NCBI GenBank assembly: GCA_949751835.1
Contig: CATKHK010000046.1
Location: 1-64,000 of the forward strand
DNA length: 64,000 bases
From: Blepharisma japonicum
Taxonomy: Eukaryota; Ciliophora; Heterotrichea; Heterotrichida; Blepharismidae
Reading direction: 5' to 3'
Position 1 is the stretch's first letter; each line of letters opens with the position of its first letter. The position numbers and the translations under genes were made by a program. Under the pieces are notes generated by a model that saw only the letters and a program-made list of their open reading frames with translations, was not told the DNA's origin and did no database searches. Of the stretch, positions 1-64,000 are shown piece by piece.

Positions 1-427
1 GAGCTTCATCTCTCACTCCATCAGCATCGGCTTCTAAGGCACTAAGATTGTATGATTGACCTTTCTCTTTTTTTGAAGTTTGAGAGATCTTTTCAATTAA
101 GCTGATATTTTTTTCTAAATCAGAATTTAGTTTACTCATATTATCTTCAAGGCTATTTCTTGAATTGTAAAGATTTGGCCTAAAAGTAGTAGAGATAATC
201 TTCCTCAGCTTCTTTATCTTGGACTTTTCTTTTAAAAGAAATCTGAGAATTTCATCTTTGGTCCCTTTAGAAGGCTCTACAAAAATAGAGTCAAAAGTAT
301 GAGTTCTGTTGGGAAGTTTAAGGTGAGCCGCAAGATGAAATTCGCAGCTATAAGTATCAAAAGACAAGCATTGACATATATACTTTACTTTGAGTTCACA
401 ACCCTGTTTGTAGCATTGATGCAACAT
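1..427 (-). CDS. B-box / coiled-coil protein, 5' part, runs off left edge
   Basis: The first 142 codons read open from an ATG at 427 to the window edge. Residues 5-43 form a Cys/His-rich B-box-like zinc site (C5, C10, C18, C20, C28, H31, H35, H43), followed by a basic, helical coiled-coil stretch. The sequence is nearly identical to the start of the complete gene at 19917-22562, which continues into a kelch-like propeller and TPR repeats, so this copy probably does too outside the window. B-box plus coiled coil is the core of TRIM-type ubiquitin ligase adaptors, but no RING finger is visible, so ligase activity is not claimed. No stop or frameshift is seen within the visible part. Confidence 0.75.
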   Translation of the reverse strand, partial: MLHQCYKQGCELKVKYICQCLSFDTYSCEFHLAAHLKLPNRTHTFDSIFVEPSKGTKDEILRFLLKEKSKIKKLRKIISTTFRPNLYNSRNSLEDNMSKLNSDLEKNISLIEKISQTSKKEKGQSYNLSALEADADGVRDEA

Positions 428-954
428 ATTTTATGAAAATTTACTAAGCTAATATGAAATTTATATTGAAAGCTAGGCTATTAAAATTTTGGAAAATAAA
501 TATATATTATTTTAAAATAAAATCATCAAAAAAATTATTCTGTTATTAAGATGTCAGGATGTCATTAAAGATGTCTCTGGCTAATGAAACTGAATTGCCA
601 TATAATAGTTTAAATTTGAATAGTTATTTTAATATTAGATTTAAATTTTAGACTATTTATTAAGGTCCAAAAATGCCGAAATTAGAGATTTTAAATGCAT
701 TATCATAAGAATCCTCCATAGGGCACTTTTAAAGCGATTTGCTTTTAAGTCTGAAGTTAAATTTCTTGCTTAAAGTTAAACTTAACTACATAAGAAGGCG
801 CAATCTGAAAATAAAATTGGAAAGCTAGCCTTAAATATAATAGATTTATTGAGGACGAAGTTTAATATGAGTAACTAAATTTCATAATTCTAAAACAATT
901 CATATAAGCTAGTAAAGATTTATACATTATTATAAATAACCAGAAATATTATTT

Positions 955-1983
955 TTAAAGTTTACTTAATGATATTTTCTTCAAATCAAATTTGAAATAT
1001 TTGATTTTCTCCCTTTCATAGGTTCCAACATAGAAATTTCCTTTATTATATATGTAGAGGCTTTATAAAGATTATTATCAGCTTCTGTTTTTCCTATTAT
1101 TTTCCAAATATGCTCATCTCCAATCTTGCTTTGATAGATCTTTCCTTTGCCAGTTTCAATCAAATACAGTCTCTCAGCATTTATCAATATCTTTGTATTT
1201 TTCTCTTTAAAGTCATATTAAATTGTCGAAAAAGAGTCAAGATCTATTGAATCAAAATATTTTTATTCCATCCTGAAATCAAAATATTCCCATTAAATAT
1301 TACACTATGACATAAGTCATCTACATTTGGCATTAAATGTAATTTTATTCATCGATTTTTATCAAAATCAAACCTACTTGAAAGAGTCAAAGTATACATC
1401 CTGTTTCTTCCTCCAAAACAATAGACATTTCTGTTAAAATAGATAGCTGATGAGTATGCACAAGGAATTCCAGGTGGTAATAATCAAATTTTAAAGTCAC
1501 TATCAATTATAAGGGTTCTCTGTATAAATGTCACTGCCATAACAGAATAATTTGTTATTTGGAAGCAGAGCAATGCAAGTACCTCTACCTATTGCTATAT
1601 TTCCTAACACCTTGATTTCTTTTCTTTTGTTTTCAGTATCATAAATAGTTAAAATAGCTCAATCATTCATGTAATCAATAAAATAAAGAGATGTGATGGT
1701 AAGCATTGACATATTCTTGATAAGCTTGGCTTAGCGAAAAGTTAGAGGCAAAGTCCTGATTTTTATAAAGCGAGCAAGTTGCCCTGAAGCCTCTTTCTAT
1801 TTCTGGATCATTATTGGTTGTGATAAAAATTACAGATGTTTTAGCATTTAGCTCTTGATCATTTAATAAATTTCATATAAGATCATGATTGAATTGACTT
1901 TGGGATCATTTTGTTACATTAGATACAGCTTCTAAGAGTTGAAAATTTAGCAATTGAGTTAAGTTAAGAGTTCTTGGCTTCAT
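955..1983 (-). pseudogene. Broken kelch-like propeller gene, copy A
   Basis: The reading matches the intact kelch gene at 22998-24038 along its whole length, starting from an equivalent ATG at 1983. Compared with that copy it lacks 5 bases near 1700 and 2 bases near 1515, and has a TAA in place of a serine codon near 1215. It therefore cannot make the full protein. UGA codons in it are Trp positions and are not counted as breaks. It stands 5' to 5' with the broken UBL at 2235-2538, as the intact pair does. Confidence 0.8.
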
Positions 1984-2234
1984 TTATATTTTTGAAGCCC
2001 GTTAAAATATGTTTACATTTTTATTGAAAAAACTTGCAGGTTAATCTATGAGGACTTAACGGAAATATTTTTTCATCCAATTTACGATGATATTAACAAA
2101 TAAACTTTACAGATATTTAATCTTAAAAATTATTTAAATAAATTCTTTACTCACTTTTACTTTATGGAATATTCCATTTCATTATCATAATTCTACAATT
2201 ATTTTCAGACATTTTTGTTTCTTATAATTATAAA

Positions 2235-2538
2235 ATATCGAACTTGAAGATAAATGTAGAGGATAGGGAGGGCAAAAGTCTCGAAATACTGTTACTAATA
2301 ATTTCTTGCCTAGCAAATTTATTATAATTAGCATCGCAAAATATATGTAAACAGTTCGTGGACTTTTGCTAAACTTTACAGCATTTTTCTGGAGCTGTTT
2401 GAGACTGAAGAAAATCTTTCAGTGATTTATGGAAATAAGTATTTGAGCATAGGTCGTTGTGGCAATATGACTTTAGAAATGCTAGGAGTCCATAGCAATT
2501 GCAGGATAGTTGTTATGTTTATAATGAAAGGTTGCTAG
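2235..2538 (+). pseudogene. Broken ubiquitin-like modifier, copy A
   Basis: This aligns with the intact UBL at 24295-24543 from its start (ATG has become ATA) to its end at a TAG. A 55-base segment at 2289-2343 interrupts it. The 3' half still reads as the beta-grasp segment, with W-T-F-A-K-L-Y and a late L-G motif. The C-terminus reads M-K-G-C, so this lineage had no Gly-Gly. Confidence 0.8.
2289..2343. other. 55-bp TA-flanked insertion in broken UBL
   Basis: Copy B reads CGAAATA-TATG continuously. Copy A has 55 extra bases between those words, and both junctions end in AAATA, so the insert is bounded by a TA-containing direct repeat. The broken UBL at 19314-19809 carries an insert starting with nearly the same bases at the same site. 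It resembles an internal eliminated sequence or a short footprint; its nature is inferred. Confidence 0.5.
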
Positions 2539-4220: not shown

Positions 4221-6236
4221 ATGCTCTCGAAAGGAATCTCTCCTTTATGAGCTCGGAAGGCAGCTATTAACATCATTTTATGCAATAAGGATCGATTATG
4301 TATAGATTCAAATTCACAAATAGGAATTTTATTAACAAATTTTGAATCAGACCCAAATTCTTTACCTTCTTCTGAAGGACCTCACATAATTAATATTTTA
4401 GAACAGATTGCCAAAAAATGCGATTTAAAATATTTTGAGACAGCTCAGTATTCCTCTATCATCATAGAAATCTTAAAAAAAGATGAAGAAGAAAGGCAAT
4501 TTTTTGAACAAATAAAAGCTAAAGAAGCTCCTCTAATTTTACTTAAACGAAATAGCAAAGAGAAACCATATGCTTATTTTGAAAGTGGTGATGGAAGGGT
4601 TTATTTATTAACTGCACTTTTTACTCAAAACAAGTATAATCGATTATACTGCAATTTTGGCAACCAATGGAAAAACCTCTGTGAAAATCCAGAGGTTAAT
4701 CCAGCAATAAAATTCAGCGAAGAAACCGTCTATGTTTATACAAAAATCAATAATGAAGGCTTTGATAAAGAAAAGGTAAATAAGATTCTTCCTTCTGAAT
4801 TTGAAGGAATTAAAAATGAAGTACAAAAATTAATAAAGCGTACTGATGCAAATTACACTGAGGTAAAAATCATAAATAAAACCAAAAATACAGAGGGTAT
4901 TGAAAAAGGATCAAAAGATCAAAAGAATTTTAAAATTGAGTATGAAAAATCGCAAAGAGAAATTGAAAATTTAAATAAAGAATTAACAGCAGAAAAAGCA
5001 AAAAATGCTGAAATTTCTTTAGAATTGCAAAAAGATATTGAATTTATCCAAGAATTAAAAAACAATAATCAAAATAGTGAAGATATAATAAAAGAGTATA
5101 AAGAGCAATTAAAGGACTCGAAATATAAGCAAGAGCTCTTGCAAGCAGAAATAAATAAACTCAAAAATGTGATTGATGAAAATAAAAATTTCGAAACCAT
5201 TATAGATATTCTACATGAGGAAAATAAAAAATTTGAAACTGAAAATAAAGCACTAATGCAAGAAAATCAAAATTATCAGAAAGAAATTCAAAATTATCAG
5301 AAAGAAAATCAAAATTATCAAGATCAAATAAACAAATTAATTTCAGAAATTAAACGATTGACACCACCAAGCTCAAAGCCTATAATTATAAGCTATCCAC
5401 TAATTTTTGACAAGAAAAAATCAGGAATTCCTAATATAGGAAATACTTGCTATCTTAATTCACTTTTGCAAGTACTTGCTAGTAATAATCAATTTTGTGA
5501 GAAAATCCAGACATTGGAATATGGATTATTTTCTACATTGTCGTCACTATTATTGAGCATTAGAAATTCTGGGTCTAATAATACTCAGCAGCTTATAACG
5601 CATTTTAAATATCAGCTTGATATAGAATTCCCACTGGTAATTTTTATATAGCTTCGAGATTTTTATCAGCAGGATTCTAAAGAAGCAATGGTCATGCTGT
5701 TAGATAAATTATCAGAATTAACTTATATAGATCCTTTGTTTACAACTTCATATCATCAAGTATTTAATTGCCACGCTTGTAATTGCAATACAAAAATGTC
5801 TGAACCAAATATTTTTATTATAGTCCCTAGTCAAAAATTCCCTTCGATACAGGAATTTTTAGTAGATTTAAAGCAGCCAAAGGATTTTTCTGGCGATAAT
5901 CAATTACATTGTGAAAAATGCAATATGCCGCAAGATATTACTCTGGAAAAAGAAGAAATTACTTGGCCATCGACAGTTATCTTTTATTTACCTTCAAATA
6001 ATGGCAGCACTGAAATTAATGAAGAGTTAGATATTGAAGGAATTAAATATAGATGGTATGGCTTAATATGCCATTATGCATGGGGTCCACGAGATGGGCA
6101 TTATATAGCATATACATGGGATACCAAGAATTGGACTGAATATAATGACTCCAGTGCAAAAAACGTTAGCTCTGACAGCGTTGATGTGGAGCATGGATAT
6201 TTAGCCTTTTATGCAAGGGAAGGAGATTTTAAATAA
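4221..6236 (+). CDS. USP1: coiled-coil ubiquitin-specific protease (C19)
   Basis: The 666-residue protein is encoded in two exons (4221-5636 and 5652-6236) joined across a 15-nt intron, GTAATTTTTATATAG. The N-terminal domain (about 1-210) contains V-Y-L-L-T-A-L-F, matching the YFLVAALS motif of the other USPs. A long Lys/Glu coiled coil follows (about 215-385). The C19 catalytic core has the Cys box GIPNIGNTCYLNSLLQVL (nucleophile near residue 410), QQDSKE directly after the intron, two CxxC pairs of a zinc ribbon, and the His box GHYIAYTW with W-T-E-Y-N-D. All catalytic positions are present. UGA codes Trp at codon 10. It would cleave ubiquitin or UBL isopeptide bonds. Its closest relative here is USP12, in opposite orientation at the other end of the window. 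Confidence 0.9.
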
Positions 6237-8556: not shown

Positions 8557-10569
8557 TTACTCATATTGCTTACACAAACCTTCTTTTCTGGAATAAAAGG
8601 TTAAGTGTACAACATGAGGGTCTAATTTTCTTGTTTCAACATGCTCGTCATTGTATTCATTCCATTCATTTTCATCGCTTGTAAAAGCAGTGTAATGAAA
8701 ACAGCCTTGATCTTGATAATAGCAAATAGCTCCATATATATAATAATATTTCTGGTCAATATAGAGTTTTTCTGAAATATTATCAGGGGGAGTTGGAAAA
8801 TAAAGCACCAGATAGACTGGCCAATCAATAGTTTTCAGTTCAATATTCATATCAACTTCTTCTCCACAGTCATTGCAAATTAATTTTTGTTTTGAGCTAT
8901 GATAATACCATAGATTTTGCAGATAATACACGATTGAATTTTTATGCGAAGAAGGAATTATTAGAAAGTTTTGAATGTCATTATATTGAGATTTGTGCTG
9001 ATATCTTCTGCGGCAAGTGAATTCCTGATGAAGCCCTATAGAGAATAAGTCAAGAGGTTCCCCATCTTCATCAATTTTGCTTAAAATCATGTTAAAAACT
9101 TCTTTAACGTCTTGCTGAGTGTAAGCCTCAATCTAAATATTTTTTACATTTTGATAGGTTTCCATTAAATTTTCTCGGAAATTTTGTATTAAATTGGCAA
9201 TTGTTTTAGAACTGTTTTCATTATGCATTTCAGCCAAAAGGGTTGATAAAGAGCTACAAAATGGGGTTTTGGTGTTTTTAATTTTTTTTACAAAAAGAGG
9301 AGAGCTTGCAAAGACTTGTAAAAGAGAATTTAAATAGCAGGTGTTTCCAAAGTTAGGTAATCCATGTTTTCTATTTGGCAGCAATCTAATTATTAGATTT
9401 TCTTGGCTGAAAATTTGTTGTGAATTATTAATTTTATTTAATTCTTCCTCGAAGTTTTTGCAATTTTCTTGCAAAATTTGATTATTATTGCAAAGTTCAC
9501 TATTTGCCTTTATTAAATTTTGCTTGGTGTTTTCAGTTTCTAAAATTGAGTTTTTAAGACGAGAATTTTCAGCCTCTAATTCATTTATCTTACATTTTAA
9601 ACCCTCAAGATTTTGTTCGAGCTGAGTAATAACTTGAGCATTATCTCGCTTTACGATTCTTGACCGCTCAATTTCTTTGTCTTTTTCTTTTATTGTTTGT
9701 ATAAGCTTTTCTTTCTCTATTTCAAGAGACACACGTGATTTTTCTAACAACTCATTTGATTCTTTTAATATTTTTTCATTTTTTTGATATGATGCTATTG
9801 ATTCTTCGTACCCACTAATATCTATCTCTAATTCTTCAATCCTTTTTTTCAAGCTTTCTATAGTTGTTTTGTCTTCATTTTTATCTTTATTTAATTTTTC
9901 AATTATTTCATTATTTTCCCTTTCAATTTGGATTTTTGTTTCCTCATCAAAATTACTTCTTGAATATTCATGATATTCAAATAAGTTTTCAATTGTCTTA
10001 GTAAAACTTCATAAGCCACGTAATGCTCTATGTGTGTGAACTTTGGAAATATCTTCAAGGCGCAAGAATTTAACAAAAATTTGTGGAGTCACTTTGCAAT
10101 AGTAAAAATAATAAGGCTCAGAATATGAATAAGTATAATAATCCAAACGTATTTCATTCCAGCTCCCATCTTTCCAATTACATAAGATTTTTCCATTTCC
10201 AGAAAGCGCTGCAACAAGAAAATAGCAATAGCAAGCATCTTTGACAACTGCTGAATTATTTGCTTCTAGTTTATTTTTTATTATCAGAATTTCATCTCCT
10301 GAACAGCGAAGCCTGCCTTGCTCTGGTAAATTTTTTAAATCATTTTCTTTAAAAGAAATAGTTCATCTATTTTTTGCTAAGACTTTGTCCAGTTTTTTAA
10401 TCAGAGAACTTTTATAATGGTTATTTTGCTCATAAATTGTATTGCAATCTCTTAAGGCATTACTAAGAAATGGTCAATCTGTATCAGCAAATGTGAGATC
10501 AACAAATTCTTTAAGAGATGATATGAGCTTCAAAGCAATTGCCAAATTTCATTCTACCGGGTTTGACAT
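8557..10569 (-). CDS. USP2: coiled-coil ubiquitin-specific protease (C19)
   Basis: The 665-residue protein is encoded in two exons, 10569-9148 and 9132-8557, split by the 15-nt intron 9133-9147 (GTAAAAAATATTTAG). Residues 1-200 form the shared N-terminal domain, with YFLVAALSGNGK, two Trp-rich turns (N-W-K-D-G-S-W-N-E) and YYFYYCKV. A coiled coil spans about 205-390. The catalytic core has GLPNFGNTCYLNSLLQVF (Cys near 411), TQQDVKE at the exon junction, one clear CxxC (ICNDC), the His box FHYTAFT and WNEYND. Only half of the usual C4 zinc ribbon is preserved. The start ATG follows a TTTATAGAATC element. UGA codons at Trp positions (for example codon 7) are needed to keep the frame open. Confidence 0.9.
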
Positions 10570-10799: not shown

Positions 10800-11480
10800 T
10801 TTTAAAGAGAACACCCTGAAAAAGCTGGAATAATTTGCCCACTGAAAAAACCTTCAATTCTGGCTCAAATTTGGGTCTGCCTTTTGGTGTGATTTTTTGT
10901 TTAATTTTCTGCTCAATTTTCGACTCAAATTCTATTTCAATTTTGGTCCAAACTTCAGCTCAACATACGGTTCAACATTCAGCTCAGATTTCGATTCAAT
11001 TTTTGACTCAATTTTTGGCTCAATTTCAGGCTCATTTTTAGCTATATGTTTTAGCTTCTGGTAGCCCGTGCAAACTAGCTCCACCTAATTCATTTTCATA
11101 TCTCCTGGCTGAACTAAAATACCTCATCATTTCCAAGCACTTCACCTTCCAGTCCACCAATACTTCCCAACAATTCTTGCTCACGATCTCTTTCATTACT
11201 CTTACTGCCTTGATTGCCTTTTGCAATTAGAGGCTCAATAGCTTGTTCAAATTCTCCTTCAGTCAGTTTTATTGCTTCTTTGACTTCGTTTTCACCAAAG
11301 CCTAAGTCTTCAAGGATTTGAATGTCCATTTCCAATACTTCAGATGACTCCAATCCATACATTCATCCTCATAGTCTTTATAGTCGCTTAAATAGTCGTA
11401 GTGGTCAATTTCATCATCAGAATTCTCAAAACTGCATAATCCTGTGCTCAGTCCAGGCATCTGTGTTTCTCTTGAACCCT
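10800..11480 (-). pseudogene. Broken UBA-domain protein with acidic and Glu/Lys-repeat regions
   Basis: Reading leftward, an ATG near 11480 opens a short reading, then an acidic part in another frame (D-D-E-I-D-H-Y-D-Y), then a piece at 11114-11362 that looks like a ubiquitin-associated (UBA) domain: D-I-Q-I-L-E-D-L-G-F-G with V-K-E-A-I and F-E-Q-A-I-E-P-L-I, the usual three-helix spacing with the L-G-F loop. A degenerate Glu/Lys repeat (E-P-K-I-E-S-K-I-E-S-K) lies at 10980-11040. At least two frame breaks and several stops separate these parts. UBA domains bind ubiquitin, so the relic fits the theme of the locus. Confidence 0.5.
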
Positions 11481-11639
11481 TTTGAATCCATAAATCTGGT
11501 AAATAAAAAAAGTATATAAAGCCTTAAATGGAAAATTCATAAATAGCACACATTTATAAAATATGATCTTTTCTATAAATTTTATATCGCTTGCTAGTTA
11601 AAGCATTATATAACTTTTATAAGATAAATTTTTTTGTGG

Positions 11640-11960
11640 ATAAAATGTAAAATTTACTATTTGGGTGTCTATTCTTAGTTTAAACATGCTCGCTTTTGTA
11701 TTATTCCATTCGATCCTACCTTTAGTGAACACATTATAATGAAAACATCCTTCGTCTTGAAAATGCAAATTGTTTCATATATTTCATAAAAGTATTGTGG
11801 GTGTTCTAGATAAAATTTTTAATATATTAATAGGGAAATAAAACATGAAATATTCTGACCGATTATAACCCATCAATTGTATATTCATATTGGCCCTGAT
11901 ATTTTTCCTTCTTTCTCTGATAAATCAAAGTTTATTTTGTATACACATGTATTAAACGCT
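11640..11960 (-). pseudogene. C-terminal scrap of a USP gene
   Basis: Minus-strand sequence matches the last exon of the USPs (AGTGAACACATTATAATGAA corresponds to the YTAFT coding region, AACATGCTCG to the D-E-H-V region), but it is full of stops and shifts and lacks any 5' part. A paralogous scrap is at 26220-26500. The rest of 11960-12660 holds nothing I can name. Confidence 0.55.
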
Positions 11961-12660: not shown

Positions 12661-14652
12661 TTATTTACATAAACCTTCTTTTCTGGAATAAAAGGTTAAG
12701 TGCACAACATGAGGGTCTAATTTTCTTGTTTCAACATGCTCGTCATTGTATTCATTCCACTCATTTCCATCCCTTGTAAAAGCTGTGTAATGAAAACAGC
12801 CTTGATCTTGATAATAGCAAATAGCTCCATACATATAATAATATTCTTGATTAATATAGAGTGTTTCTGCAATATTATCAGGGGGAGTTGGGAAATAAAG
12901 TACCAGATAGACTGGCCAATCAATATTTTTCAGTTCAATATTCATATCAACTTCTTCTCTGCAGTCATTGCAAATTAATTTTTGTTTTGAACTATGATAA
13001 TGCCTTAGGTTTCACAAATAATTCGCTATTGAATCTTTATGCTGAGAAGGAATTATTAGAAATGTTTGGATGTCATTGTACTGAGATTGGTGCTTGCGCC
13101 AGTTATTGCAAGTGAATTCCTGATGAAATCCAATAGAGAATAAGTCCAGGGATCCCCCATCTTCCTCAATTTTGCTTAAAATCATGTTAAAAACTTCTTT
13201 AACATCTTGCTGAGTATAAGCCTCAATCTAAATAATTTTTACATTTGAATATGTCTCTATCAAATTTTCACGGAAATTTTGTATTAAATTGGCAATTATT
13301 TTAGAACTGTTTTCATTATGTATTTCAGCCAAAAGTGTCGCCAAAGAACTGCAAAACAGAGACTTTGTATTTTTAATTTTTTTTATGAAATAAGGAGAGC
13401 TTGCAAAAATTTGCAAAAGAGAATTTAAATAGCAGGTGTTTCCAAAGTTAGGCAGTCCATGTTTTCTGTTTGGAAGCAATCTAATTATTTCATTTTCTTG
13501 ATTGAAACTTTGTTTTGAATAATTGATTTTGTTTAATTCTTCCTCAAGGGTTTTACACTTTTCTTGCAAAATTTGATTGTTATTAAAGAATTCTGCATTT
13601 GCCTTTATTAAATTTTGATGGATACTTTCATTTTCTGAAATTAAGCTTTTAAAGGTAGAGTTTTCAGCTTCTATAGAATTTATTTTATCTTTTAAATCCT
13701 CAAGATTTTGTTTAAGTTGGTTAATAGCTTGAGTATTATTTTGCTTTATGGCTTTAGACTGATAAATTTCTGTGTCTTTTTCTTTTATTATTTGTATAAG
13801 GTTATTTTTCTCGATTTCAAGAGATTCGCACATTTTTTTCAATGACTTATTTGATTCTTCTAATTCTTTTTTATTGTTTTTATATTGCTCTATTAATTCT
13901 TCATCGCTATTAATAATTGTCTCTAATTTTTCAATTCTTTTATTCAAGTTTTCTATTATTGTTTTGTCTTCATTTAATTTTTCAATTATTTCATTATTTT
14001 CTCTTTCAAGTTTGACTTTTGTTTCCTCATCAAAATTACTTCTTGAAGATTCATGATATTTAAATAAGTTTTCACCTCACTTAGTAAAATATGATATATT
14101 GTGCAATGCTTTATATCTATATTCTCTGGAAATATTTTCAAGCCACAAGAATTTAACAAAAAATTGTGGAGTCACTTTGCAATAGTAAAAATAATAAGGC
14201 TCAGAATTTTGATAAGTATAATTACCCAAGTGTACTTCATTCCAGCTCCCATTTTTCCAATTGCATAAAATTTTTCCATTTCAAGAAAGTGCTGCAACAA
14301 GAAAATAGAAGTAGCAATTATCTTTGGCTACAGCTGAAACGTTTTCTTCTGGTTTACTTTTTATTATCAGAATTTCATTATTTGAACAACGAAGCCTGCC
14401 TTGCTCTGGTAAATTTATTAAATCGCTTTCTTTACAAGAAATCATTCATCCATTATGTGCTAAAACTTTTGCAAGATTTATAGACTGATAACTTTGATAT
14501 CCTTCGCTTCATTGATAAACATAATTAATTCTGCTTAAGATAGTGTTCAGATCTTCCGAAGATCTATCAGGAAATTTGAGATCAACAAATTCTCTAAGAG
14601 AATATGTGAGGTTTAGAGCAATTGTCAAATTTCATTCTATCGAGTCTGACAT
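12661..14652 (-). CDS. USP3: coiled-coil ubiquitin-specific protease (C19)
   Basis: The 658-residue protein is encoded in exons 14652-13243 and 13227-12661, with 15-nt intron 13228-13242 (GTAAAAATTATTTAG). Order of parts: N-terminal domain 1-200 (YFLVAALS, YYFYYCKV), coiled coil about 205-390, Cys box GLPNFGNTCYLNSLLQIF with Cys near 407, TQQDVKE, zinc half-site ICNDC, His box FHYTAFT, WNEYND. At least seven in-frame UGA codons fall at Trp positions; no UAA or UAG occurs before the end. It is the duplicate of USP4, with most differences in the coiled coil. The ATG lies 6 bases after a TTTATAGAATC element. Role: removal or maturation of ubiquitin or a UBL, inferred from the family. Confidence 0.9.
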
Positions 14653-14657
14653 TTTTA

Positions 14658-19058: not shown

Positions 19059-19313
19059 TTTATTTATATTTTTGAAAGCCTGATAAATATATTTACATTT
19101 TTATTGAAAAAAATTTCCAGTTAATTTATGAGGACTTAACAGTAATATTTTTTTCATCCAATTTAGTCGATGTTAACAAACAAACTTCTCAGGTCTTTAT
19201 CTTAAAAATCATTTAAATAAATTCTTTACTCACTTTTACTTTATAGAATATTCCATTTCATTATCATAATTCTAAAATTATTTTAAAATATTTTTGTTTC
19301 TTATAATTATAAA

Positions 19314-48887: not shown

Positions 48888-50894
48888 TTAAGGGGAAACA
48901 GATGAGGCTTTATAAAACAGCATATAGCATTTATTTGGGTCCGGAGTCTTATTTGGTGTAACGATCTCATCATTATACTCATTTCAAATCCCATCATCTT
49001 TGGTATAAGCAATATAGTGCCTTTCACTATACCAAATAACTCCAAATATTTCATAATTGATTTTACCTAAATGCAAAAAATCTGGAATTCTGTTAAGCCG
49101 ATTTTTACTTTTAGCATTATAAAATGCTAAAATTTCATGTGACTCAATGCTATCTGTTATTATCTTTGAATCTGCTAGTGTCCCACATGTTTTACAATAC
49201 AATTTATTATCTCCTACATAGAAATTTTCTTCTTTTTCAAGCTGACTTAATCATTCTTCAATAGATAATCCATTATCGAAAATAGTTAAAAATGCCTGAG
49301 GTTGAGATAATTCTGCCCTGTGGTTATTATTTTCACAAATTATCGCTTGGTGTTTGTTTATTAAAAACATATCACTTTGGAAAATTTCCCCAAATAAATT
49401 TATGATGATAGCAAATAATTCTTTACAGTCATTTTCTCTATTTCTGTCAAACTAAATATAAATTACCATAGAATATTCTTGGGTAAGGGCATTTCTTAAG
49501 CTAGTTAATTTTTCTTTTGTGTTTATAGAATAAGGATCTGTTACAGAAACGAGCACATCATTCAAGCTTTCAAATAAGCCAGTTTCAATGATTCCTATAG
49601 TTTCTATAAAATTAGGTATACTTGCAAAGATCTGTAAAACTGAATTGAGATAGCAACTATTTCCTATATTTTCTAATCCTTTTTTCTGTTTTTTGGAAGG
49701 ATTACTATTATGCCTTTTAAACCTAGAGACTTGAGTTGCAGTTTTTGAGACTGAGATTTGTTTGGCCTCATTTAAGCTTGATAAATTTTGGATGATTTCT
49801 TCAATATTACTAATTTTTGATTCTAATCTTTGGTGATCATTTTTAGATTCACACATTAGCTTATGGTACTCGACTTCTATATTTTTGCAATTTTCGAGTT
49901 TTTGCTTCAGTTCGTTGATACTTTGTTGACATTTTTGAGAAGTGCTATTTATGTACAGAAAAAAGTCAGAAACACCGCTAACAATTAAAGAAAAATTGTT
50001 ACTATCATTATCCTTTGTTAAATCGCTTCTGTTATTTTCAAAAGGTTTGAAATGGCTCAAATTAGATTTGCTATTAGATTGAGCATCCTTTATAAATAAA
50101 TAGCTTTCTTCTATTATTTTTTCTAAATATTGTATCTTTTCTTTGACAATTCAATCTATCTTTTTATCAAAAATTGTTTGTATATTCTCCATATCTTCCA
50201 TCTTTTTATAAATATTTTCATTTTCATGTCTTAATTTTACTATTTCAGTATAAAGGTAGTTACTCTTTTGATCATTTTCGATTAAACGTTTATCAATTTC
50301 TCTAAATATTTTATTGATTTCAATTGAATTTTCTGTTTCTTCTTTATTTTTAGAAGTTTCTTCAGTTTTTTTAATAAAACACATGATCATAGGAAAGGTG
50401 TTAGGCAACTCATTTATGTCAATTTGCTGAAAAGGAGGCTCATTTATGCCACTTTGTTGAGATGAGCAATCATTTCATACCTTATCATAGTTACAATATA
50501 AATAACCTTCTTTTTGAAAAATTTTTACAATTAAATTATAGCCTTTTATGTTTTCATTTCATTCTTGATTTTTAGAGCAAACACAAAAAAAAGCATGGTT
50601 TTCTACTCTTTCAGGAATTTCATGCATTTTAAATGGATCGAAAAGTCGATTTTGCCATGCAAAATTCTTTTCTCAATCCTGGGAAATAATAATTTCTTTT
50701 ACGAGCTGATATACTTCTTTTGAGCTTGTGAAATTGATAATTTGTTTAAGCTTTTCAATGCATTGATTATCGATGCCTAAAGTAAAAGCATTTTGAAAAT
50801 GTTTTTCTAAGACTTTATCTTTTCAGGGAAGCTCTATATAATGGCTAATTGTTGAAATTATATAAGCTGCTTTTCTAAGTTCCTTATAATCCAT
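48888..50894 (-). CDS. USP10: coiled-coil ubiquitin-specific protease, second subfamily
   Basis: The 663-residue protein is encoded in exons 50894-49467 and 49451-48888, with 15-nt intron 49452-49466 (GTAATTTATATTTAG). N-terminal domain with Y-N-L-I-V-K-I-F, C-N-Y-D-K-V-W and M-I-M-C-F-I-K; coiled coil about 190-330; Cys box GLENIGNSCYLNSVLQIF with Cys near 414; N-D-C-K-E in place of QQDVKE; zinc parts IICEN and LYCKTC; His box R-H-Y-I-A-Y-T; W-N-E-Y-N-D with UGA for Trp. The segment shortly before the Cys box is basic (F-K-R-H-N-S-N-P-S-K-K) and may be flexible. It is the closest relative of USP9 and its tandem neighbour. Confidence 0.88.
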
Positions 50895-51706: not shown

Positions 51707-52729
51707 ATGAATGATTATGTTAAGTATGCTGCTATAGGAGGCGTTATAATTGGAATATATGCTTATATTCATTATAGACCGCAGCTAAAAGCATGATGGA
51801 GAAATCGTAGAAATAAGCAAAATAACAAGTTAAGAGATTCTAGAGGTTATCAAGAGCTAGAAAATAAATCTTTTAAAAAGCTATACTCTAAAAAGATCGG
51901 AATTCCAAATTATGGAAATACCTGCTATTTAAATTCTGTACTCCAAATTCTAGCAAGTACTCCAAATTTTGTAGATTCTATATCAAAATCTAAAGCCATT
52001 TTATTTAGAATTTTATCATCAATATTTTCCCTTATATTTTCACATAGTTCAGCAAGTAGTTTTAAACCAGTTATTATACAATTATTAAATATACTCAAAT
52101 CCCATTATTGTCCGTTAAGTTCCTCGACTAATACTACTTCTACTATGGTAAGTGATATTTAGTATGAACTTTACTCCCAGAACGACTGCAAAGAAATTTA
52201 TAATATTTTAATAGATATCTATATACAAGAATTCAGCCATGAGAAAAAAAGATTTCAGCTCACAAAAAACCAAACTTTCATGTGCCAGAAAGGCCATAGA
52301 GATAAAAATTTAGAAGAATCACTATTTATTATCATTCCTCCAGGATATAAATTAAGTGTAAAAAGATGTTTAGAAAGCATAAAAAGTAGGGAAAGTGAAT
52401 TAGATTTATGATGTGAGGTTTGCAAAGAAATAAGCAGTTCCATAATAATGGTAGATTCTTTAGAAATGCCCGAAATTTTGGCATTTTATGTAACTGATGC
52501 ATCGAATAAGGATAGAAAGCCTAAGACAGAAATAAATTTCGAGAATATTGACTATAAACTATATGCTGTAATATGCTATTATGGAGGAGGGCAATCTGGT
52601 CATTATATTGCTTATACTTGTGATGATGGAAAATGGAATAAGTATAATGACGCCTTTGCGTCAGAAGATCTTCCTGATTACGATCATGCTTATATGCTTT
52701 TTTATTCAAAATTTGATAAGATTATATAA
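51707..52729 (+). CDS. USP11: short membrane-anchored protease, USP30-like
   Basis: The 335-residue protein is encoded in exons 51707-52147 and 52163-52729, with 15-nt intron 52148-52162 (GTAAGTGATATTTAG). Residues 8-24 form one membrane span (A-A-I-G-G-V-I-I-G-I-Y-A-Y-I) followed by basic residues (W-W-R-N-R-R-N-K), the layout of a mitochondrial outer-membrane signal anchor and of animal USP30. There is no coiled coil or N-terminal domain. Cys box GIPNYGNTCYLNSVLQIL with Cys near 73; N-D-C-K-E after the intron as in USP9 and USP10; zinc parts FMCQK and LWCEVC; His box GHYIAYT; W-N-K-Y-N-D. The intron position is the same as in the long USPs, so this may resemble their ancestor. Localisation is inference. 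Confidence 0.88.
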
Positions 52730-53248: not shown

Positions 53249-53509
53249 TTAGCTTAGTTTCCAATTCCGATGAAAAACTTTTATTGACGTATTGCTTGAT
53301 ATTCCCAATTCTCTGAAGGTCCTGTCTTTATCTCGATTAAATATCAATGCTCTATTTTGGTACACAACATTTTGCTGATCTTGGGGCACACCATAAATGT
53401 CAGCCATCTTCATCGCCAGTAATGAGTATTTTCAGCAGCTGTAGACTTCTAGAGGCCTGGTATGACCTTCGATGTCTTCCAATGTAATTCTTATCTTTTC
53501 ATTTGCCAT
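53249..53509 (-). CDS. Ubiquitin-like protein lacking Gly-Gly
   Basis: 86 residues if the single in-frame UGA is Trp (S-C-W-K-Y-S), matching S-M-W-K-Y-S of the UBL at 55269-55553. Homology runs throughout: I-R-I-T-L-E-D-I, L-E-V-Y-S, K-M-A-D-I, D-K-D-R-T, L-G-I-S-S-N. The C-terminus reads V-F-H-R-N-W-K-L-S where the paralogue has V-L-H-R-V-I-G-G, so the Gly-Gly needed for conjugation is absent. It is either a non-conjugated UBL or early in decay; the open frame and conserved core favour the first. First of three tandem UBL genes on the minus strand. Confidence 0.75.
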
Positions 53510-54113: not shown

Positions 54114-54380
54114 TTAAATTAAGCTTAAACTTCCTCCTCTCATCTTCTCAAGAACTTGAACTTGACAGTTGTTGCTAAAGCCCAGTTGTTGCAAAGAAAA
54201 TCTGCCAGATTGCGCCAAATTCAAATACTTATTTCTAAAAATCACACATGGTGTTGCATTTTGATTCCCAAATATTTGCAAAAATTCTTCGTGAAGCCGA
54301 GCATAAGTCCACGTGCTTTCAACTTGCTGTGAGCGCGAATTTCCTTCTTTATCTTCAATTATTATAGTCCAGGTAGCCAT
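54114..54380 (-). CDS. Ubiquitin-like modifier with R-G-G and five-residue tail
   Basis: 88 residues, intronless, read entirely with TGG. Beta-grasp signature: W-T-I-I-I-E-D-K-E-G, then W-T-Y-A-R-L-H in the helix, F-R-N-K-Y-L-N, L-Q-Q-L-G-F-S-N-N-C and V-Q-V-L. The C-terminus is K-M-R-G-G-S-L-S-L-I. Ubiquitin ends L-R-G-G, so cleavage after Gly-Gly would give a conjugatable form, and the tail would be removed by a protease such as one of the USPs around it. Paralogue of the UBL at 24295-24543, whose corresponding end is N-G-C. Identity with ubiquitin itself is low by eye; it is a separate modifier, not polyubiquitin. Confidence 0.85.
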   Translation of the reverse strand: MATWTIIIEDKEGNSRSQQVESTWTYARLHEEFLQIFGNQNATPCVIFRNKYLNLAQSGRFSLQQLGFSNNCQVQVLEKMRGGSLSLI

Positions 54381-55268: not shown

Positions 55269-55553
55269 TTAATTCAAATAAATATTTAAACTTTTGTTTT
55301 TACCTCCAATTACCCTATGTAAAACCTTGACCATCATGTTATTTCTAATTCCCAATTGGCTTAAGGTTTTGTCTTTATCCTGGTCATAATGCAATGATCT
55401 AGTTTGGAAAGTAACAGATTGCTGATTTTGAGGAACTTGGCAAATATCAGCTATTTTCTGTGCCAGTTGTGAGTATTTCCACATGCTGTAGACTTCTATA
55501 GACCTGTAAAGGTCATTAATATCTTCCAGTCTTATTGTTAATCTTTCTCCCAT
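55269..55553 (-). CDS. Ubiquitin-like modifier with Gly-Gly and ten-residue tail
   Basis: 94 residues, intronless. Beta-grasp pattern: L-T-I-R-L-E-D-I, E-V-Y-S-M-W-K-Y-S-Q-L-A, V-T-F-Q-T-R-S-L, L-S-Q-L-G-I-R-N-N-M-M-V-K-V-L. The C-terminus H-R-V-I-G-G is followed by K-N-K-S-L-N-I-Y-L-N, a tail that must be cut off before activation by an E1. The upstream sequence contains TTTTGTAGAATGG, so the shared upstream element runs into the start codon. Paralogue of 53249-53509. Together with 54114-54380 it gives two different potentially conjugatable modifiers within 1.5 kb. Confidence 0.85.
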   Translation of the reverse strand: MGERLTIRLEDINDLYRSIEVYSMWKYSQLAQKIADICQVPQNQQSVTFQTRSLHYDQDKDKTLSQLGIRNNMMVKVLHRVIGGKNKSLNIYLN

Positions 55554-56869: not shown

Positions 56870-58790
56870 AAGGCACTTATTTTCATCGAAGCACAGAATC
56901 AGGACTCACATAATAGAAATAATTTTCATTAAGCGCAAATTATTTTACGGAATTAGAAGAAAAATTAGCTAAAAGGGTAGAAAAGGATATAGAAAATAAT
57001 TACAAGGGTATGCTAGAGAATTATTAGTTCAATGTGAAGAAAAGATAAACTCAGCAGTTTTAATATAGAAACTAAAAACTGTAATAAAATTGTAGTTATG
57101 AAGGCTAAGCTAGAAAACGTATTTTATTCCTTTAAATATTTTGAGTAAAGTGAAAGAATTAGAAAAATGCTTCAAGGATAATGAGGAAGGCAAAATAGCA
57201 ATTTTAGCTGAGAAGAATTAGTTACAAATGATATTTTATTGGATTATATGACAACATTTACCAAATCTCTATTCGATCCAGCAAAACAGGGAGTTTGTCT
57301 GAAGACTGGTGGTGCAAGAGCTCTCCACAGCTGAGCCTATTTAGGGTGAACTTAGGGAAAGCCCTATATATAGCAATCCAGAGTATTAATACATAATTAA
57401 AAATTTAATTTAAATTTTAAAAGCGAAACTAAAAACATTTTTTAAGGATTTAAATAAAAAAATTGAAAGAATTGATATTGAGAGTAAAAACTCTATTGAA
57501 ATAATAAAAATCCGGCCAACGGAATTGAGAAAATAAAAAATGAATCTGATAAAAGCAAGATAAGCTATTTGCTGATACTAAAAATCAAAGAATTACAATA
57601 AGGAAATGCAAGATTGGCAATTTGAAGTTAATAGTGATTTTAAAAATATTAAAAATGAAATCGAGAGATATAAATCTGGAATTTCCAGCCAGCCGCTTGC
57701 TATATCAAATCAACCTCAAGCCACACCCAACTCAGATCTTATAAGAGTCAAACAAAGATACTTCCATCAACGCATTCTATAGATTCTCAAAATAAACAGA
57801 CTGAAAGGAAATCTCAACTTTTTAACTCTCATAGACAGATTCAAATCTTAAGACCTCTTCATTTTAACAAATCAGGCCTACCAAACATAGGAAATACTTG
57901 TTACATGAATTCAGTTATACAAATATTAGCAAGCTCAGCTGATTTCATTCAATATATAATTAGCATTACTAAAGACGACTTATTGCAGAGCCTAAATTCA
58001 GTTATATCATCAATAAATGCTAAATTTGGAGAAATTAAAATAACCCACTTCTCCAAATCTTTAAAAAATTTAATTTCAAGAGATTTTTCAATGGTAAATT
58101 ATTTAGTTTAGTGGAAGTGCTGTAAATGATGCAAAGAATTTTTTGCTATTCTTTCAGAAAAAGTTGAAAATAAGAGTTATTTTACTCTAGTGAAAAATCA
58201 ATTATATACTTGCAGTTCCCACTTCCAGCATAAATCATGAAACGAGGACAATTCAAATTTTATAATTATCCAAAAAATAGTCAAAATAATATAGAGGCAT
58301 TTTTAAATAATATGAAGAATTTTCAGGCGAAAATCAATTAGAATGTGTGAGATGTAGAGCATTGGTAATAAATACTGAAAGCAATGAATGGCCTAAAAGT
58401 TTAATACTTTATATCCTGATTAGCAGATCTAAGGAGAGATCCCAGATATGTTGCAGGTTGAAAATAATAGTTACCAAATTTTCGGAGTAATATAAATCTT
58501 TGCAAATTTTGCAGAGTTCTCAACGTATGGTTTATACTCTGTGTGAATATTTCCACATTTTTAGCATACAAATATGGAGGCTCATTATATCAAATAAATT
58601 CTGCACGCAATCTGCATTTTGAGAATTTTACAAGAGTTCTATGCTATTATGGGTATCATTTCATAGCATTTACTACTAATGGAGATGTATAATGACTCTG
58701 AAGTGAGTTAAAAGAAACCTGATTGGGGCAAGCTTTATCTTGCATTTTATAAGAATATTGATTATAAATCTTATAATAATGCCCATTAAG
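56870..58790 (+). pseudogene. Broken coiled-coil USP gene
   Basis: Coiled-coil readings with many stops run from 56870 to 57700. A clear catalytic piece at 57860-58100 follows, with KSGLPNIGNTCYMNSVIQIL. The intron position is recognisable but its length no longer fits (ATGGTAAATTATTTAGTTTAG), and the last exon to 58790 has shifts and an extra segment of roughly 150 bases before the His-box region (near 58500-58640). Catalytic parts are recognisable but no continuous frame exists. It is nearest to USP9 and USP10 in the last exon. Confidence 0.8.
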
Positions 58791-58829: not shown

Positions 58830-60815
58830 TTAAATTTTATAACTTGCGTAGAAGGCTAAATACCCATTTGTCACGTCAACTTTAGCATTAGTGCTTACCC
58901 AGGAATCATTATATTCAGTTCATTTTTTGGTATCCCATGTATATGCTTTATAATGTCCAGAATAAGGAGTTCCATAATGGCATATTAATCCGTACCATCT
59001 ATAAATAGTTCCTTCAATATTTAATTCTTCATTGATTATAATTCTCCCATTATTAGAGGGAAGGTAAAAGGTAACTGTAGATGGCCAACTTATTTCTTCA
59101 CACTCCATTGTAATATTTTGGGTTTTTTTGCAGTTCTGACAATATAATTGGTTTTTATCAGTGAAATATTTTGATTCTCTTAAACTTGGTAAAAATTCTT
59201 GTATAGAACGGAATTTTCCTTTAGGAACATTAATAAAATTATTTGGTTCAATCCCATTTGTTTTGTTCTTACAAATATGGCATTTAAATGCTTGTTTATA
59301 TTCAGTTGTAAATATAGACTTTATATCAGTTAATTCTGACAGTCTACCTGTCAGCATCATCATTACTTCTTTAGAATCTTCCTGAGTGGAATTTCCAAGC
59401 TATATAAAGATTACCCATGGGAATTCTGTAACAAGTTGGGATTTAAAGGATCTCACAAGTCGCTCAGTATTGCAAGACCCAGGATTCCTAATACTCAATA
59501 TTAGTGATGATAAAGCAGAAAATAATTCATATTCTATAGTCTCGATTTTTTCACAAAATTCATTATTACTTGCAAGCACTTGTAGAAGTGAATTAAGATA
59601 GCAAGTATTCCCTATGTTAGGGATTCCTGATTTTACCTGATTAAAAATTAGTGATGGGGAAGGCGGGGGAGGTCGTGGAATCGGTGAAGGAAGGGGAAGC
59701 GGGTCATCTTTATTTTTCAAATTTTTTTTTAACTCTTTTATTTGAGATTTAAGATCTTGGTTTTCTTGATTTAAGGCATCATTTTGAATTTTATAAACTT
59801 GGTTTTCTTTTATTAGAGATTCGTTTTCTTTTAGCAACTCTTCCAAACATAATAATTGATTTTTATAATCTTCTATCACCTCTTCTTTATTTTTAATATT
59901 TTGACTTAATTCTTGTTGGATTGAAACACTTTTTTGTAGCTCTTTGCTGATTTCATTCATTTTATCTGTTTCGACATTTAATATTTTTATGTAATAATCT
60001 TTTAATTTCTTATTTTCATTTTCTAGACTCTGTATTTTTTCATTTAAATTTTTTTGAATTTCTTTATTTTCTTTTTCTTTTTCAGCCTTAAATTTATCAA
60101 TTTCATTTTTAAAATCCTTTAATTGATCTTCATAATTGATTTTTGGCTTAAAATCAATATCTTTTTCATCGAATTTTTTATTTTTGCCAACAGAATATGC
60201 TGTTATAGCTTCTGGCAATTTTTCAGCATCTTTTTTACGTCCTTCTCATTCAGAAGGAAGACGCTTATTAACCTTTTCTTTATCAAGATCTTCTTTTTTG
60301 ATTTTTGTATAAACATATACAGTTCCTTCGCTGAATTTTATTGGGGTTTTATCTTTTGGATTTTCACTAAGATTTTTTCATTGATTTTCAAAATTGCAAT
60401 ATAATCTTTTCTGCGCATTTTCAGTAAAAAGTGCAGTTAATAAATAAACCGTTCCATTATTGTTTTCGAAATAACTATATGGTATATCCTCACTTAATCT
60501 TTTAAGCAAAATTAAAGGTGCTTCTTTATCTTTCATTTGTTCAAAAAAACATTTTTCTTCATCTTTTTTATGAAGATAATTTATATTGATATAATATAAT
60601 TGAACTGTTTCGAAGTATTTTGAATCATATTTTTTCGAAATATCTTCAAGAATATTTTTTACAAGTTTCTCTTTAGTAGGTAACAAAAAATCTGGGTTCG
60701 ATTGAAAATCTGTTAATAATTTGTCTATTGGTAAATTTTGATTGATGCATAGTCTATCTTTATTGCATCAAATAAGTGAGATAGCTGCCTTTGAAGCTCA
60801 TGAAAGAGTAGGCAT
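58830..60815 (-). CDS. USP12: coiled-coil ubiquitin-specific protease with proline-rich linker
   Basis: The 656-residue protein is encoded in exons 60815-59415 and 59399-58830, with 15-nt intron 59400-59414 (GTAATCTTTATATAG). N-terminal domain about 1-200 (V-Y-L-L-T-A-L-F as in USP1), coiled coil about 205-370, then a proline-rich linker (P-L-P-L-P-S-P-I-P-R-P-P-P-P) unique in the window and typical of SH3- or WW-binding stretches. Cys box GIPNIGNTCYLNSLLQVL with Cys near 405; the QQD box reads T-Q-E-D-S-K-E; two complete CxxC pairs (FKCHICK, YCQNC); His box GHYKAYT; W-T-E-Y-N-D with UGA for its Trp. Paralogue of USP1 in mirror orientation. Confidence 0.9.
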
Positions 60816-61511: not shown

Positions 61512-61932
61512 ATGGATAGGATGTTGCTAGAATTCAATAAATTAAGAAATCCTATTATAGGAATCAAAATTGATCTATGGCAAGATGCCTTCACTAGAAT
61601 GGGCTATTAATTGGCCCTACATAAACATCATTTGAAGGCGGAAAATTCCATTTTGAGATAATTAATTTTTCCTTCTAATTTCCCTGAATTTATTCCTTAC
61701 AAGGATTTATCATCTAAATGTTAACTCTGATAGTAAAGCATTCGTGGAAATTCTAAACTTAGCTTGAAAACCTGAAATATCAATAAGATCTATCTAGAGT
61801 GCTATATGCACTTTGCTAGCTCAGCCTTTTCCTGAGTCAGGATAAGTTAATGATGCATATAATACTATGCAAACCAATGCAGCAGCTTATGAAAGAGAGG
61901 TAAGACGATATAAGGCTTATTTTGCAAGATAA
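61512..61932 (+). pseudogene. Broken ubiquitin-conjugating enzyme (E2)
   Basis: The ATG and first 30 codons are open (M-D-R-M-L-L-E-F-N-K-L), then a TAA, then shifted pieces that match an E2 fold in order: F-E-G-G-K-F-H-F-E-I, S-N-F-P, a region in place of the H-P-N box, W-K-P-E-I-S-I, and a C-terminal helix A-A-A-Y-E-R-E-V-R-R-Y. The active-site segment has no Cys at the expected place. The neighbouring intact E2 at 62575 is a relative but not a recent duplicate. Confidence 0.8.
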
Positions 61933-62574
61933 GAGCTATTTTAATAATAAAAAGATAAAAAATATTTAATCTATTATTAAAAATTATCATAGAAGATCAA
62001 GGAAGATTTAATTGAGACTGTATAACTAATTTCCAAAATCTAAAATGATAAATAATGAGGCTTTCCAAAGGATATATTGAATTTTGTAGGAGACAAAATT
62101 TATTAGAGAAATAAACACTCTTACTAGTATTCCACTCAACTAATTTTGATTTTTTCTTTTATGAATTTATGTGGAATATTTATTGAGTTATTGCTCATTA
62201 TGCTAATAGATAAAATATTGCTATTATATTAGCTATATACACAATCTGCTTAATTTTAAAAAGAGAGCAGTAAAAGAAATTCTCTAAGAGCAAATAATCA
62301 ATCAAAAATTAAATACTGAGCTTTTAGCATTAATCCATATAACTTTATGCTAAAGAGGGAAATATTTAATACTTATAAAGTAAGCAGACGTAAGTAAGAT
62401 AAGAAAATTATTTACCATTTTATTCACTAAAACAGTATTAAATTTAAGAATTATAAATTTTTTTTGGATAATTTTTAGAATAAAATTCTTCAATTAAAAT
62501 TATTTTATCTTTAAAGTAAAGCCATTAGTTTATGCAGTTAAAATCAGACCCCATTTTAAATTTATAGAAATAAA
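61933..62574. other. Spacer between E2 copies
   Basis: No gene or repeat recognised. TTTATAGAAATAAAATG lies at the right end, directly before the E2 start. Confidence 0.45.
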
Positions 62575-63015
62575 ATGGAAAGACTTACGAATGAATTTAA
62601 CAATCTCCTAGAAAGACCTGAGCCTTATATCACTATACATTTAGTAGATCAATCACTATTTCACTGGAGAGGAACTCTAAATGGTCCTGAAGATAGCCCA
62701 TATGAAGGCGGCATGTTCAATTTCGAAATTAAATTTCCGGAAAATTTCCCTTCGAGCCCTCCTACATTCATTTTCAAAACGAAAATTTTTCACCCAAATA
62801 TATATACTGATGGTAGAGTTTGTTGCGAAATCTTTAATAGTGGATGGAGTCCAAGAGTCCCTGTAAGAAATGTAATCGCTTATGTGGTAGGATTATTGAA
62901 TGAGCCTTCGCCATCGACTGGGTACTCAGGGGAAGCTAGAGACTTGTGCATTCGAGATGTAGAATTGTATAACCAAAGGGCAAGAGAATTGACTATGCAG
63001 TATGCCATGGGATAA
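62575..63015 (+). CDS. Ubiquitin-conjugating enzyme (E2)
   Basis: 146 residues, the usual length for a minimal UBC fold, intronless. Visible parts: N-terminal helix, H-W-R-G-T-L-N-G-P-E-D-S-P-Y-E-G-G, F-P-E-N-F-P-S-S-P-P, the H-P-N motif at 73-75, then G-R-V-C-C-E-I-F with the catalytic Cys expected at 83, eight residues after the Asn as in canonical E2s. A second Cys at 84 replaces the common Leu. G-W-S-P-R follows. It carries an activated ubiquitin or UBL from an E1 to a ligase or substrate. It lies 880 bp upstream of the E1 start on the same strand and 7 kb from the UBL trio. The partner modifier cannot be told from sequence. Confidence 0.93.
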   Translation: MERLTNEFNNLLERPEPYITIHLVDQSLFHWRGTLNGPEDSPYEGGMFNFEIKFPENFPSSPPTFIFKTKIFHPNIYTDGRVCCEIFNSGWSPRVPVRNVIAYVVGLLNEPSPSTGYSGEARDLCIRDVELYNQRARELTMQYAMG

Positions 63016-63895
63016 ATTTAATTAAATAGATGATTTGAACTAGACTTTAATTTTATTTCAATAAAGGATAAATTAAATAATTTAAAGAATAATAAATAGA
63101 GAGAGGCTGATGATTTAGATGCTTAAGTGAAATAGATTCATGCTATGGCTATATGATATTTAGTCATATTTTATCTCTTATTCCGTTATTAGTCATTTTA
63201 TGTCAAATGGTTCGCTTAATAAGAAATCAAGAGCCACCTAGATGAAAATATAAATCTGATTCCTGGCATAAAGTTATGAGTTAGTAAAAAGAATAAAATT
63301 CTTAAAATTGGCTTAATTATTGTAGAATAATAAAAACATGGAAACTAAATAATTATTCTTAAAAAATTAACTTAGTTATTTGCACCATAGTTCAAATTTA
63401 TAGAATCAAACAAAAAGGAGTTTTAATTCTTTGATATAGCGTCATTTATTTTTAAGGATTTTAGATCCATAAAAGGCGTTTGCAGTGGATTATCAATAAC
63501 ATTTTCAGATATATAAATTGTTACTTACAAGAAAAGTTAATAAAACTTCTCATTTTTTTAAAATTATTCTACAGCCTTGCATTATGAATAATCCAATTAT
63601 ATCCTAAATCCTTAGAAATAAAAACCTAAAATATATTTTGAAAAATCAATAATCTAATTCTCTTGCATAATTGCACAATTAATTATAATTTAATATTAAT
63701 CTTTAGCTTTTAATTATATGAGTTCTCATCTTAGATAGAGAAATTGGTCAAACTATTTTAGTATCTCTGCTTATCTAATTTTGTTATGCAGATTTCTCAT
63801 AACCTGATTTTCATTTTAATGTTTGACATTTTTATTTTCATTTTTATTCAATCTTTTAGTTCATAACTAAAGATTCTACAGTTTATTTAATAAAA
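63016..63895. other. Spacer between E2 and E1
   Basis: No gene recognised; stops in all frames. The word AAATTTATAGAATCAAAC at about 63396-63413 is a copy of the upstream element but no start codon follows closely. Confidence 0.45.
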
Positions 63896-64000
63896 ATGTT
63901 AAATCAAGATCATCTCTATTCACGCTCTATTGCTGCTATTGGTATAGCCACTCAAAAAAAGCTCTTCACCCTACGTGTTTTGATTTCTGGTCTCCGTGGT
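63896..64000 (+). CDS. E1 ubiquitin-activating enzyme, first 35 codons, runs off right edge
   Basis: The open reading from ATG 63896 to the edge gives D-H-L-Y-S-R-S-I-A-A-I-G, K-K-L-F-T-L-R-V-L-I-S-G-L-R-G. UBA1-type E1 enzymes begin with Y-S-R-Q followed about 20 residues later by V-L-[IV]-S-G-L-[RQ]-G-L-G, the first adenylation-domain strand and glycine loop, and the spacing here is the same. The Gln after S-R is Ser here. E1s adenylate the C-terminal glycine of ubiquitin or a UBL and pass it to the E2. Only the N-terminus is visible, so completeness and specificity are unknown. Confidence 0.75.
   Translation, partial: MLNQDHLYSRSIAAIGIATQKKLFTLRVLISGLRG

Follow-up and report, generated by a model that had tools for sequence, protein, structure and literature searches.

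The vertebrate ISG15 system is built on a lineage-specific ubiquitin-like protein (UBL) with its own activating enzyme (E1, UBA7), conjugating enzyme (E2, UBE2L6) and ubiquitin-specific protease (USP18). Its genes are unclustered in man, and ISG15 itself has two UBL domains. In the operons of Caldiarchaeum and Asgard archaea, a modifier precursor that is trimmed before use is co-encoded with an E1 and an E2 (PMC5654768). Mammalian DUB/USP17 arrays consist of tandem C19 protease genes that have expanded independently within species by repeated duplication (PMC2874809). Here we describe a stretch of 64,000 nucleotides (nt) of Blepharisma japonicum DNA (contig CATKHK010000046.1, positions 1 to 64,000; hereafter the window), which holds an array of twelve intact C19 ubiquitin-specific protease (USP) genes together with UBL genes, an E2 gene and the probable start of an E1 gene. 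It resembles the archaeal operons in placing modifier-like, conjugating and probable activating genes side by side, whereas those operons, as far as the available text goes, have a JAMM/Rpn11 protease and a small RING protein, with no USP array noticed. It resembles the USP17 arrays in its tandem, locally duplicated C19 genes but differs from them in having UBLs, an E2 and a probable E1 within the same 64 kb, and in USPs that carry an N-terminal domain matching nothing known. The likeness to the ISG15 system suggests a possible way of working for the Blepharisma locus, the pairing of components being only putative here. Among the listed publications on Blepharisma and ubiquitin, judged by titles and the first lines of abstracts, we found no such locus, and the available main text of PMC10946202 does not mention "ubiquitin" or "USP."

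That the locus is an array of diverging C19 deubiquitinases (DUBs) with intact active sites is well supported. It is plausible that the UBLs, the E2 and the probable E1 are joined with these USPs in one pathway, because of their neighbourhood, their divergence and the repeated relics; relics of UBLs, of USPs and of a second E2 show that such gene classes have been present here repeatedly. Our judgement is evenly balanced on the reading that combines the two, in which a birth-and-death array of USPs serves a UBL/DUB branch specific to the lineage; we favor it over the array-only explanation considered below.

The twelve USPs that we modelled lie on the minus strand in ten cases and on the plus strand in two. 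A single intron splits every gene, and its position, after the Cys box and before the QQD box, corresponds in all of them. They are named below by their first coordinate.

4221..6236, plus strand, intact USP, intron 5637-5651, two CxxC pairs
8557..10569, minus strand, intact USP, intron 9133-9147
12661..14652, minus strand, intact USP, intron 13228-13242
27232..29217, minus strand, intact USP, intron 27793-27807, QQD box changed to QHS
30421..32391, minus strand, intact USP, intron 30976-30990
33641..35638, minus strand, intact USP, intron 34223-34237
37247..39235, minus strand, intact USP, intron 37799-37813
40617..42539, minus strand, intact USP, intron 41205-41219
45895..47935, minus strand, intact USP, 16-nt intron 46450-46465
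48888..50894, minus strand, intact USP, intron 49452-49466
51707..52729, plus strand, short USP of 335 residues without the N-terminal domain, intron 52148-52162
58830..60815, minus strand, intact USP, intron 59400-59414, two CxxC pairs

Besides these, there are at least four USP relics or damaged copies.

11575..11951, minus strand, USP exon-2 relic
16104..17997, minus strand, damaged USP with about 90% identity over most of its length to the 30421-32391 region
42776..43839, minus strand, USP relic of the 45895/48888 clade
57674..58689, plus strand, damaged USP whose Cys-box half matches PF00443 at 1.9e-8

In all twelve intact USPs, exon 2 has a PF00443 match at an E value of 0.001 or less, and the catalytic boxes GN[TS]CY, HYxA[YF]T and W-x-x-YND are present in every one, in agreement with the claim of the sequence-only reading that twelve apparently intact C19 proteases are encoded here; we infer that the enzymes are catalytically active. 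A zinc finger of two CxxC pairs is common in C19 USPs but not obligatory. Both pairs are kept in two of the twelve; the other ten keep one CxxC and have C...H in place of the first, which may form a C-H-C-C zinc site. The nearest solved relatives of the exon-2 profile are USP15, USP21 and Ubp8 (5e-14 to 7e-11), and a single exon-2 sequence also fits the SUMO isopeptidase model Peptidase_C98 (9.1e-4). Viral contigs scanned with the exon-2 alignment gave 67 pattern matches and no relatives. Pairwise identity among the USPs ranges from 20% to 86%. All except one consist of an N-terminal domain of about 200 residues, a long stretch that appears coiled-coil-like by eye and the conserved catalytic domain; the exception, the short USP, has a hydrophobic N terminus that by eye resembles a membrane anchor. 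USPs 4221-6236 and 58830-60815 are inverted partners with 68% DNA identity. The related, oppositely oriented regions around them (4177-6262 and 58800-60859) flank most of the array.

The array evolves by recent segmental duplication. Self-comparison of the window revealed block duplications of 1-2288 with 22136-24348 (90-97% identity), of 11575-18333 with 26144-32725 (89-92%) and of 18323-19367 with 23209-24348 (87-90%). Trees of the three USP domains concur on the close groups with two exceptions, both in the catalytic tree: 12661 pairs with 8557 and not with 27232, and 30421 and 33641 join the 8557 clade before 37247. This conflict between catalytic and N-terminal trees, in the 8557-38000 part of the array, hints at gene conversion or at exchange of catalytic exons between copies.

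The ratio of nonsynonymous to synonymous substitution rates (dN/dS), calculated by the Nei-Gojobori method for ten USP pairs, is 0.21-0.58 in the catalytic domain. In the N-terminal domain it is 1.31, 0.94 and 0.93 for the three pairs within the 8557/12661/27232 clade and 0.39-0.67 for the remaining seven. Six pairs were bootstrapped. The share of resamplings with an N-terminal value above the catalytic value was 99.8-100% for the three pairs of that clade, 96% for 30421/33641, 89% for 45895/48888 and 26% for 4221/58830. The catalytic domain is thus under constraint. In some of the copies the N-terminal domain shows either relaxation or diversification; by these dN/dS values, positive selection on it is no more than a possibility. 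A freer N-terminal domain in one clade is the pattern expected of a changing targeting module, and we take the domain to be the putative targeting module of these USPs.

An AlphaFold2 model of the N-terminal domain, based on the 11 window sequences, has a helical bundle and, after it, a beta unit (mean per-residue confidence [pLDDT] 76; predicted template-modelling score [pTM] 0.77). No Pfam family was found in more than one of the 11 members, the top stray match being Pox_B6 (E value of 0.0012), and a profile search of solved chains gave no relative (best E value of 0.34). Among the best 50 of 230 Foldseek matches to the model, none was at an E value of 0.001 or less, and the highest probabilities (0.41-0.44) belonged to USPL1. 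We considered whether the domain is a degenerate second USP half and set the idea aside, as hhalign gave probabilities below 1% (E values of 0.07-0.2). The W-box falls in register in one comparison and in two of a further set of three; the third of that set puts it elsewhere, and a second USP half is a lead only.

The window contains four open UBL genes and two UBL relics.

24295..24540, plus strand, UBL with Gly-Cys and a stop where ubiquitin has Gly-Gly, arranged head-to-head with the kelch-like gene
53252..53509, minus strand, UBL without a C-terminal diglycine, PF00240 E value of 4.1e-4, below cut-off
54117..54380, minus strand, UBL ending MRGG plus a 5-residue tail, no Pfam match, ubiquitin fold by AlphaFold2
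55272..55553, minus strand, UBL ending VIGG plus a 10-residue tail, PF00240 1.3e-5, at cut-off
2142..2535, plus strand, UBL relic ending Gly-Cys, adjoining a kelch relic
19287..19827, plus strand, UBL relic adjoining the kelch relic 18325-18895 on the minus strand

The AlphaFold2 model of UBL 54117 (mean pLDDT of 81) matches 521 PDB chains at an E value of 0.001 or less and aligns to 1ubq with a template-modelling score of 0.80 by target length, so that this protein is modelled with a ubiquitin fold. UBLs 24295, 53252 and 55272 are ubiquitin-like as judged from alignment, Pfam giving no ubiquitin-family match for 24295. Aligned with ubiquitin, the Gly-Gly of 54117 and 55272 is in register, followed by the tails of 5 and 10 residues; the residues aligned with Ile44 and Lys48 are kept in 54117 and 24295 and not in 55272. 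The claim of intact UBL genes stands for four open genes, of which only two have the C-terminal diglycine. The pair 55272/53252 has a dN/dS of 0.36 over 78 codons, and the pair of 24295 with the relic at 2332 has a relic-like value of 1.13 over 65 codons.

These proteins might instead be noncovalent ubiquitin-fold regulators, comparable to the domains of BAG1 and NUB1, that dock to USPs or to kelch proteins. The best solved match of the UBL profile is the BAG1 UBL (0.006), ahead of polyubiquitin (0.019). In three blocks, the Gly-Cys UBL 24295 or one of the two UBL relics faces a kelch gene or kelch relic head-to-head, and this arrangement has been duplicated as a unit. The two UBLs with an in-register Gly-Gly and tails argue against such a role, which we consider unlikely.

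The candidate conjugation genes lie at the right end of the window, and a further ubiquitin-related relic lies to the left.

62575..63015, plus strand, intact UBE2D-like E2, PF00179 8.4e-40, HPN and catalytic Cys kept
61666..61932, plus strand, broken second E2 with UQ_con matches to two stretches of a single frame, 0.6 kb upstream of the intact E2
63896..64000, plus strand, probable UBA1-type E1 of which the initial 35 residues precede the window end, 0.9 kb downstream of the E2 and in the same orientation
11117..11377, minus strand, UBA-domain relic, 1.1e-4, 0.1 bit below the Pfam cut-off

Both the intact E2 and the relic of a second one, as proposed from the sequence, are borne out by these matches; the proposed UBA relic has a match that falls just short of the cut-off. 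The E2 has 297 solved matches; among the top 60, 57 are named UBE2D, UbcH5 or fusions of these, and three are otherwise named. Its identity to human UBE2D2 is 39% (57 of 145 residues), and because UBE2D is usually far more conserved than this, the E2 is probably a divergent UBE2D paralog. An ordinary housekeeping E2, part of the outcome that would have undermined the proposed cluster, fits poorly with that divergence. At 38.8%, the GC content of the E2 gene stands above the 28.9% of the USP genes, which could mean that the gene moved in from another part of the genome or that constraint on it is stronger. The frame from 63896 matches positions 4-34 of TIGR01408 (Ube1) at an E value of 0.0079, far under the cut-off; UBA1 chains are its top phmmer matches at 0.1-0.16, and ThiF gives 0.048. 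On these matches the earlier proposal of an E1 start is probable, although it covers 35 residues and scores below cut-off.

In a joint pathway, a USP would cut the short tail behind the UBL Gly-Gly, after which the E1 and E2 would couple the modifier to its targets. The various USPs would strip it off again, each from different targets according to its variable N-terminal domain. The UBLs that lack Gly-Gly would act as decoys or noncovalent regulators or be en route to loss.

Several results weigh against a UBL branch served by the array. Ordinary USPs are closer to the exon-2 profile than the UBL-specific USP18 is (USP15 at 4.8e-14 versus USP18 at 5.2e-7), so that the enzymes could act on ubiquitin itself; the Gly-Gly at ubiquitin's position is missing from UBLs 24295 and 53252; and the E1 rests on 35 residues with marginal E values. 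The scanned intergenic frames, which omit some spacers, contain no RING, HECT or U-box E3. With the E1 cut after 35 residues and no E3 in those frames, the word "complete" in the sequence-only reading is not supported. The N-terminal domain is not uniformly the freer one: the contrast is reversed in 4221/58830 (N-terminal 0.39 versus catalytic 0.46) and 30421/37247 (0.42 versus 0.58) and is small in 33641/37247 (0.41 versus 0.39), and in none of the six bootstrapped pairs is the N-terminal dN/dS reliably above 1, the top bootstrap fraction being 0.78.

The first two of these points also favor an explanation in which only the USP array is functional, shaped by unequal exchange and acting on ordinary ubiquitin, while the UBLs, E2 and E1 are chance or independently duplicated neighbours in an unstable region. 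The kelch-UBL pairs form duplicated blocks of their own, separate from the USP units, an unrelated Band_7 relic also lies in the window, and the mammalian USP17 arrays are a precedent for an array alone (PMC2874809). On the other hand, the chance of finding both an E1 and an E2 among ten neighbour slots is of the order of 5e-5, a rough, post hoc figure that takes the 35-residue E1 as real and rests on guesses of about 40 E2 genes, 8 E1 genes and ten slots, with 25,711 genes as in B. stoltei (PMC9942806). The pattern is moreover repeated by the second E2 relic and the two UBL relics. We regard the array-only explanation, which overlaps with noncovalent UBLs and does not exclude them, as a real possibility, if a somewhat doubtful one. 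What has stood of the original proposal is that genes of modifier-like proteins, of a conjugating and a probable activating enzyme and of many deconjugating enzymes are located together and evolve fast by local duplication; the roles it suggested in mating type, defence or genome editing are speculative.

Reading TGA as an amino acid and keeping TAA and TAG as stops gives widely open frames across the window; TGA encodes Trp, and the high-scoring gene models contain 66 TGA and 51 TGG codons. The USP genes are interrupted by introns of 15 or 16 nt that start with GTA and end with TAG. B. stoltei has the same code, with TGA as a sense codon, and the same tiny introns (PMC9942806), and from code and introns we infer that the window is DNA of a Blepharisma-type heterotrich ciliate. 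Its GC content is 28.2%, and 44% of its bases lie inside intact genes, both lower than the 33.5% GC and 77% genic share of the somatic genome of B. stoltei (PMC9942856). These values and the many relics would suit a decaying or germline-limited region in which most copies are dead or dying and irrelevant in the soma. However, all 12 USPs are open with constrained catalytic domains, and their frames contain no internal eliminated sequence where about 20 would be expected at B. stoltei density in 22.9 kb of germline USP genes, so that the window is probably somatic DNA and a decaying or germline-limited region is very unlikely. The telomere repeat CCCTAACA has no copy on the plus strand of the window, and its reverse complement has a single lone copy at 59615. 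Scans of the window for tRNA genes and with Rfam gave no matches.

The motif T[AG]TAGAA, picked after viewing the sequences, occurs 12-41 nt before the start codon in eight of the 12 USPs and in the E2; within the 45 nt upstream that were considered (chance of about 0.026 per gene), it is absent from all four UBLs, both kelch/B-box genes and the E1. A core-promoter role in this organism is possible. We do not count it as evidence of co-regulation, because it is inherited among USP copies and is perhaps a general promoter element.

The remaining features are genes with kelch-like and tetratricopeptide repeats (TPRs) and other relics.

22998..24038, minus strand, kelch-like gene, 1.9e-6 to one kelch model
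19911..22562, minus strand, long gene with a Cys/His-rich N terminus, a kelch-paralogous middle and a TPR array, the TPR being certain
2..1983, minus strand, start of a second B-box-like gene together with a damaged kelch gene, the two duplicating 22136-24348
25670..26054, minus strand, unrelated prohibitin/Band_7 relic, Band_7 3.7e-4, below cut-off

The proposed B-box/kelch/TPR adaptors are thus certain as to TPR and supported below cut-off as to kelch (Kelch_1 scores 19.6 against a cut-off of 20.1, and no kelch model reaches its cut-off), while B-box and adaptor role are unconfirmed. The Cys/His spacing at the N terminus of the long gene is B-box-like by eye. No B-box or RING was found by Pfam for 1-430 on the minus strand or by NCBIfam for residues 1-322 encoded by the long gene (21597-22562, minus strand), and none is among the Pfam families listed for the long gene, which number 25 of 36 in one search and 25 of 37 in another. 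Its TPR array (19911-21131, minus strand) has 10.6 units of 102 nt with 84% matches, a regularity that suggests a recent change in repeat number. Prohibitin was described as the sole clearly unrelated relic; its match lies below cut-off, and a weak match to the splicing factor SYF2 at 6852-7052 on the minus strand (E value of 0.0015) is possibly another. At 44500-45460, several long overlapping frames on both strands are probably a decayed gene, with nothing in Pfam beyond a stray match at an E value of 0.052 and no solved relative for the frame 44728-45072 on the plus strand.

The boldest version of the one-pathway idea is a private heterotrich UBL pathway held as one cluster, with its own tailed UBLs, E2 and E1 and at least twelve USPs that diversify receptor-like N termini for target choice, perhaps serving intracellular defence or self-recognition. 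We think it rather improbable; if true, it would be a eukaryotic cluster that joins a modifier with a fast-turnover set of erasers. Even if it is no more than a USP array, the locus represents a protist equivalent of the USP17 arrays in mammals and contributes an N-terminal domain without a convincing match in Pfam or among solved structures. If the UBLs are substrates of the USPs, writer, tag and erasers of a eukaryotic modifier pathway would sit side by side in Blepharisma and would be evolving through local duplication. The locus would then provide a natural set of USP paralogs in which active sites are conserved and N-terminal domains vary, and it would allow the origin of new ubiquitin-like systems to be tested directly.

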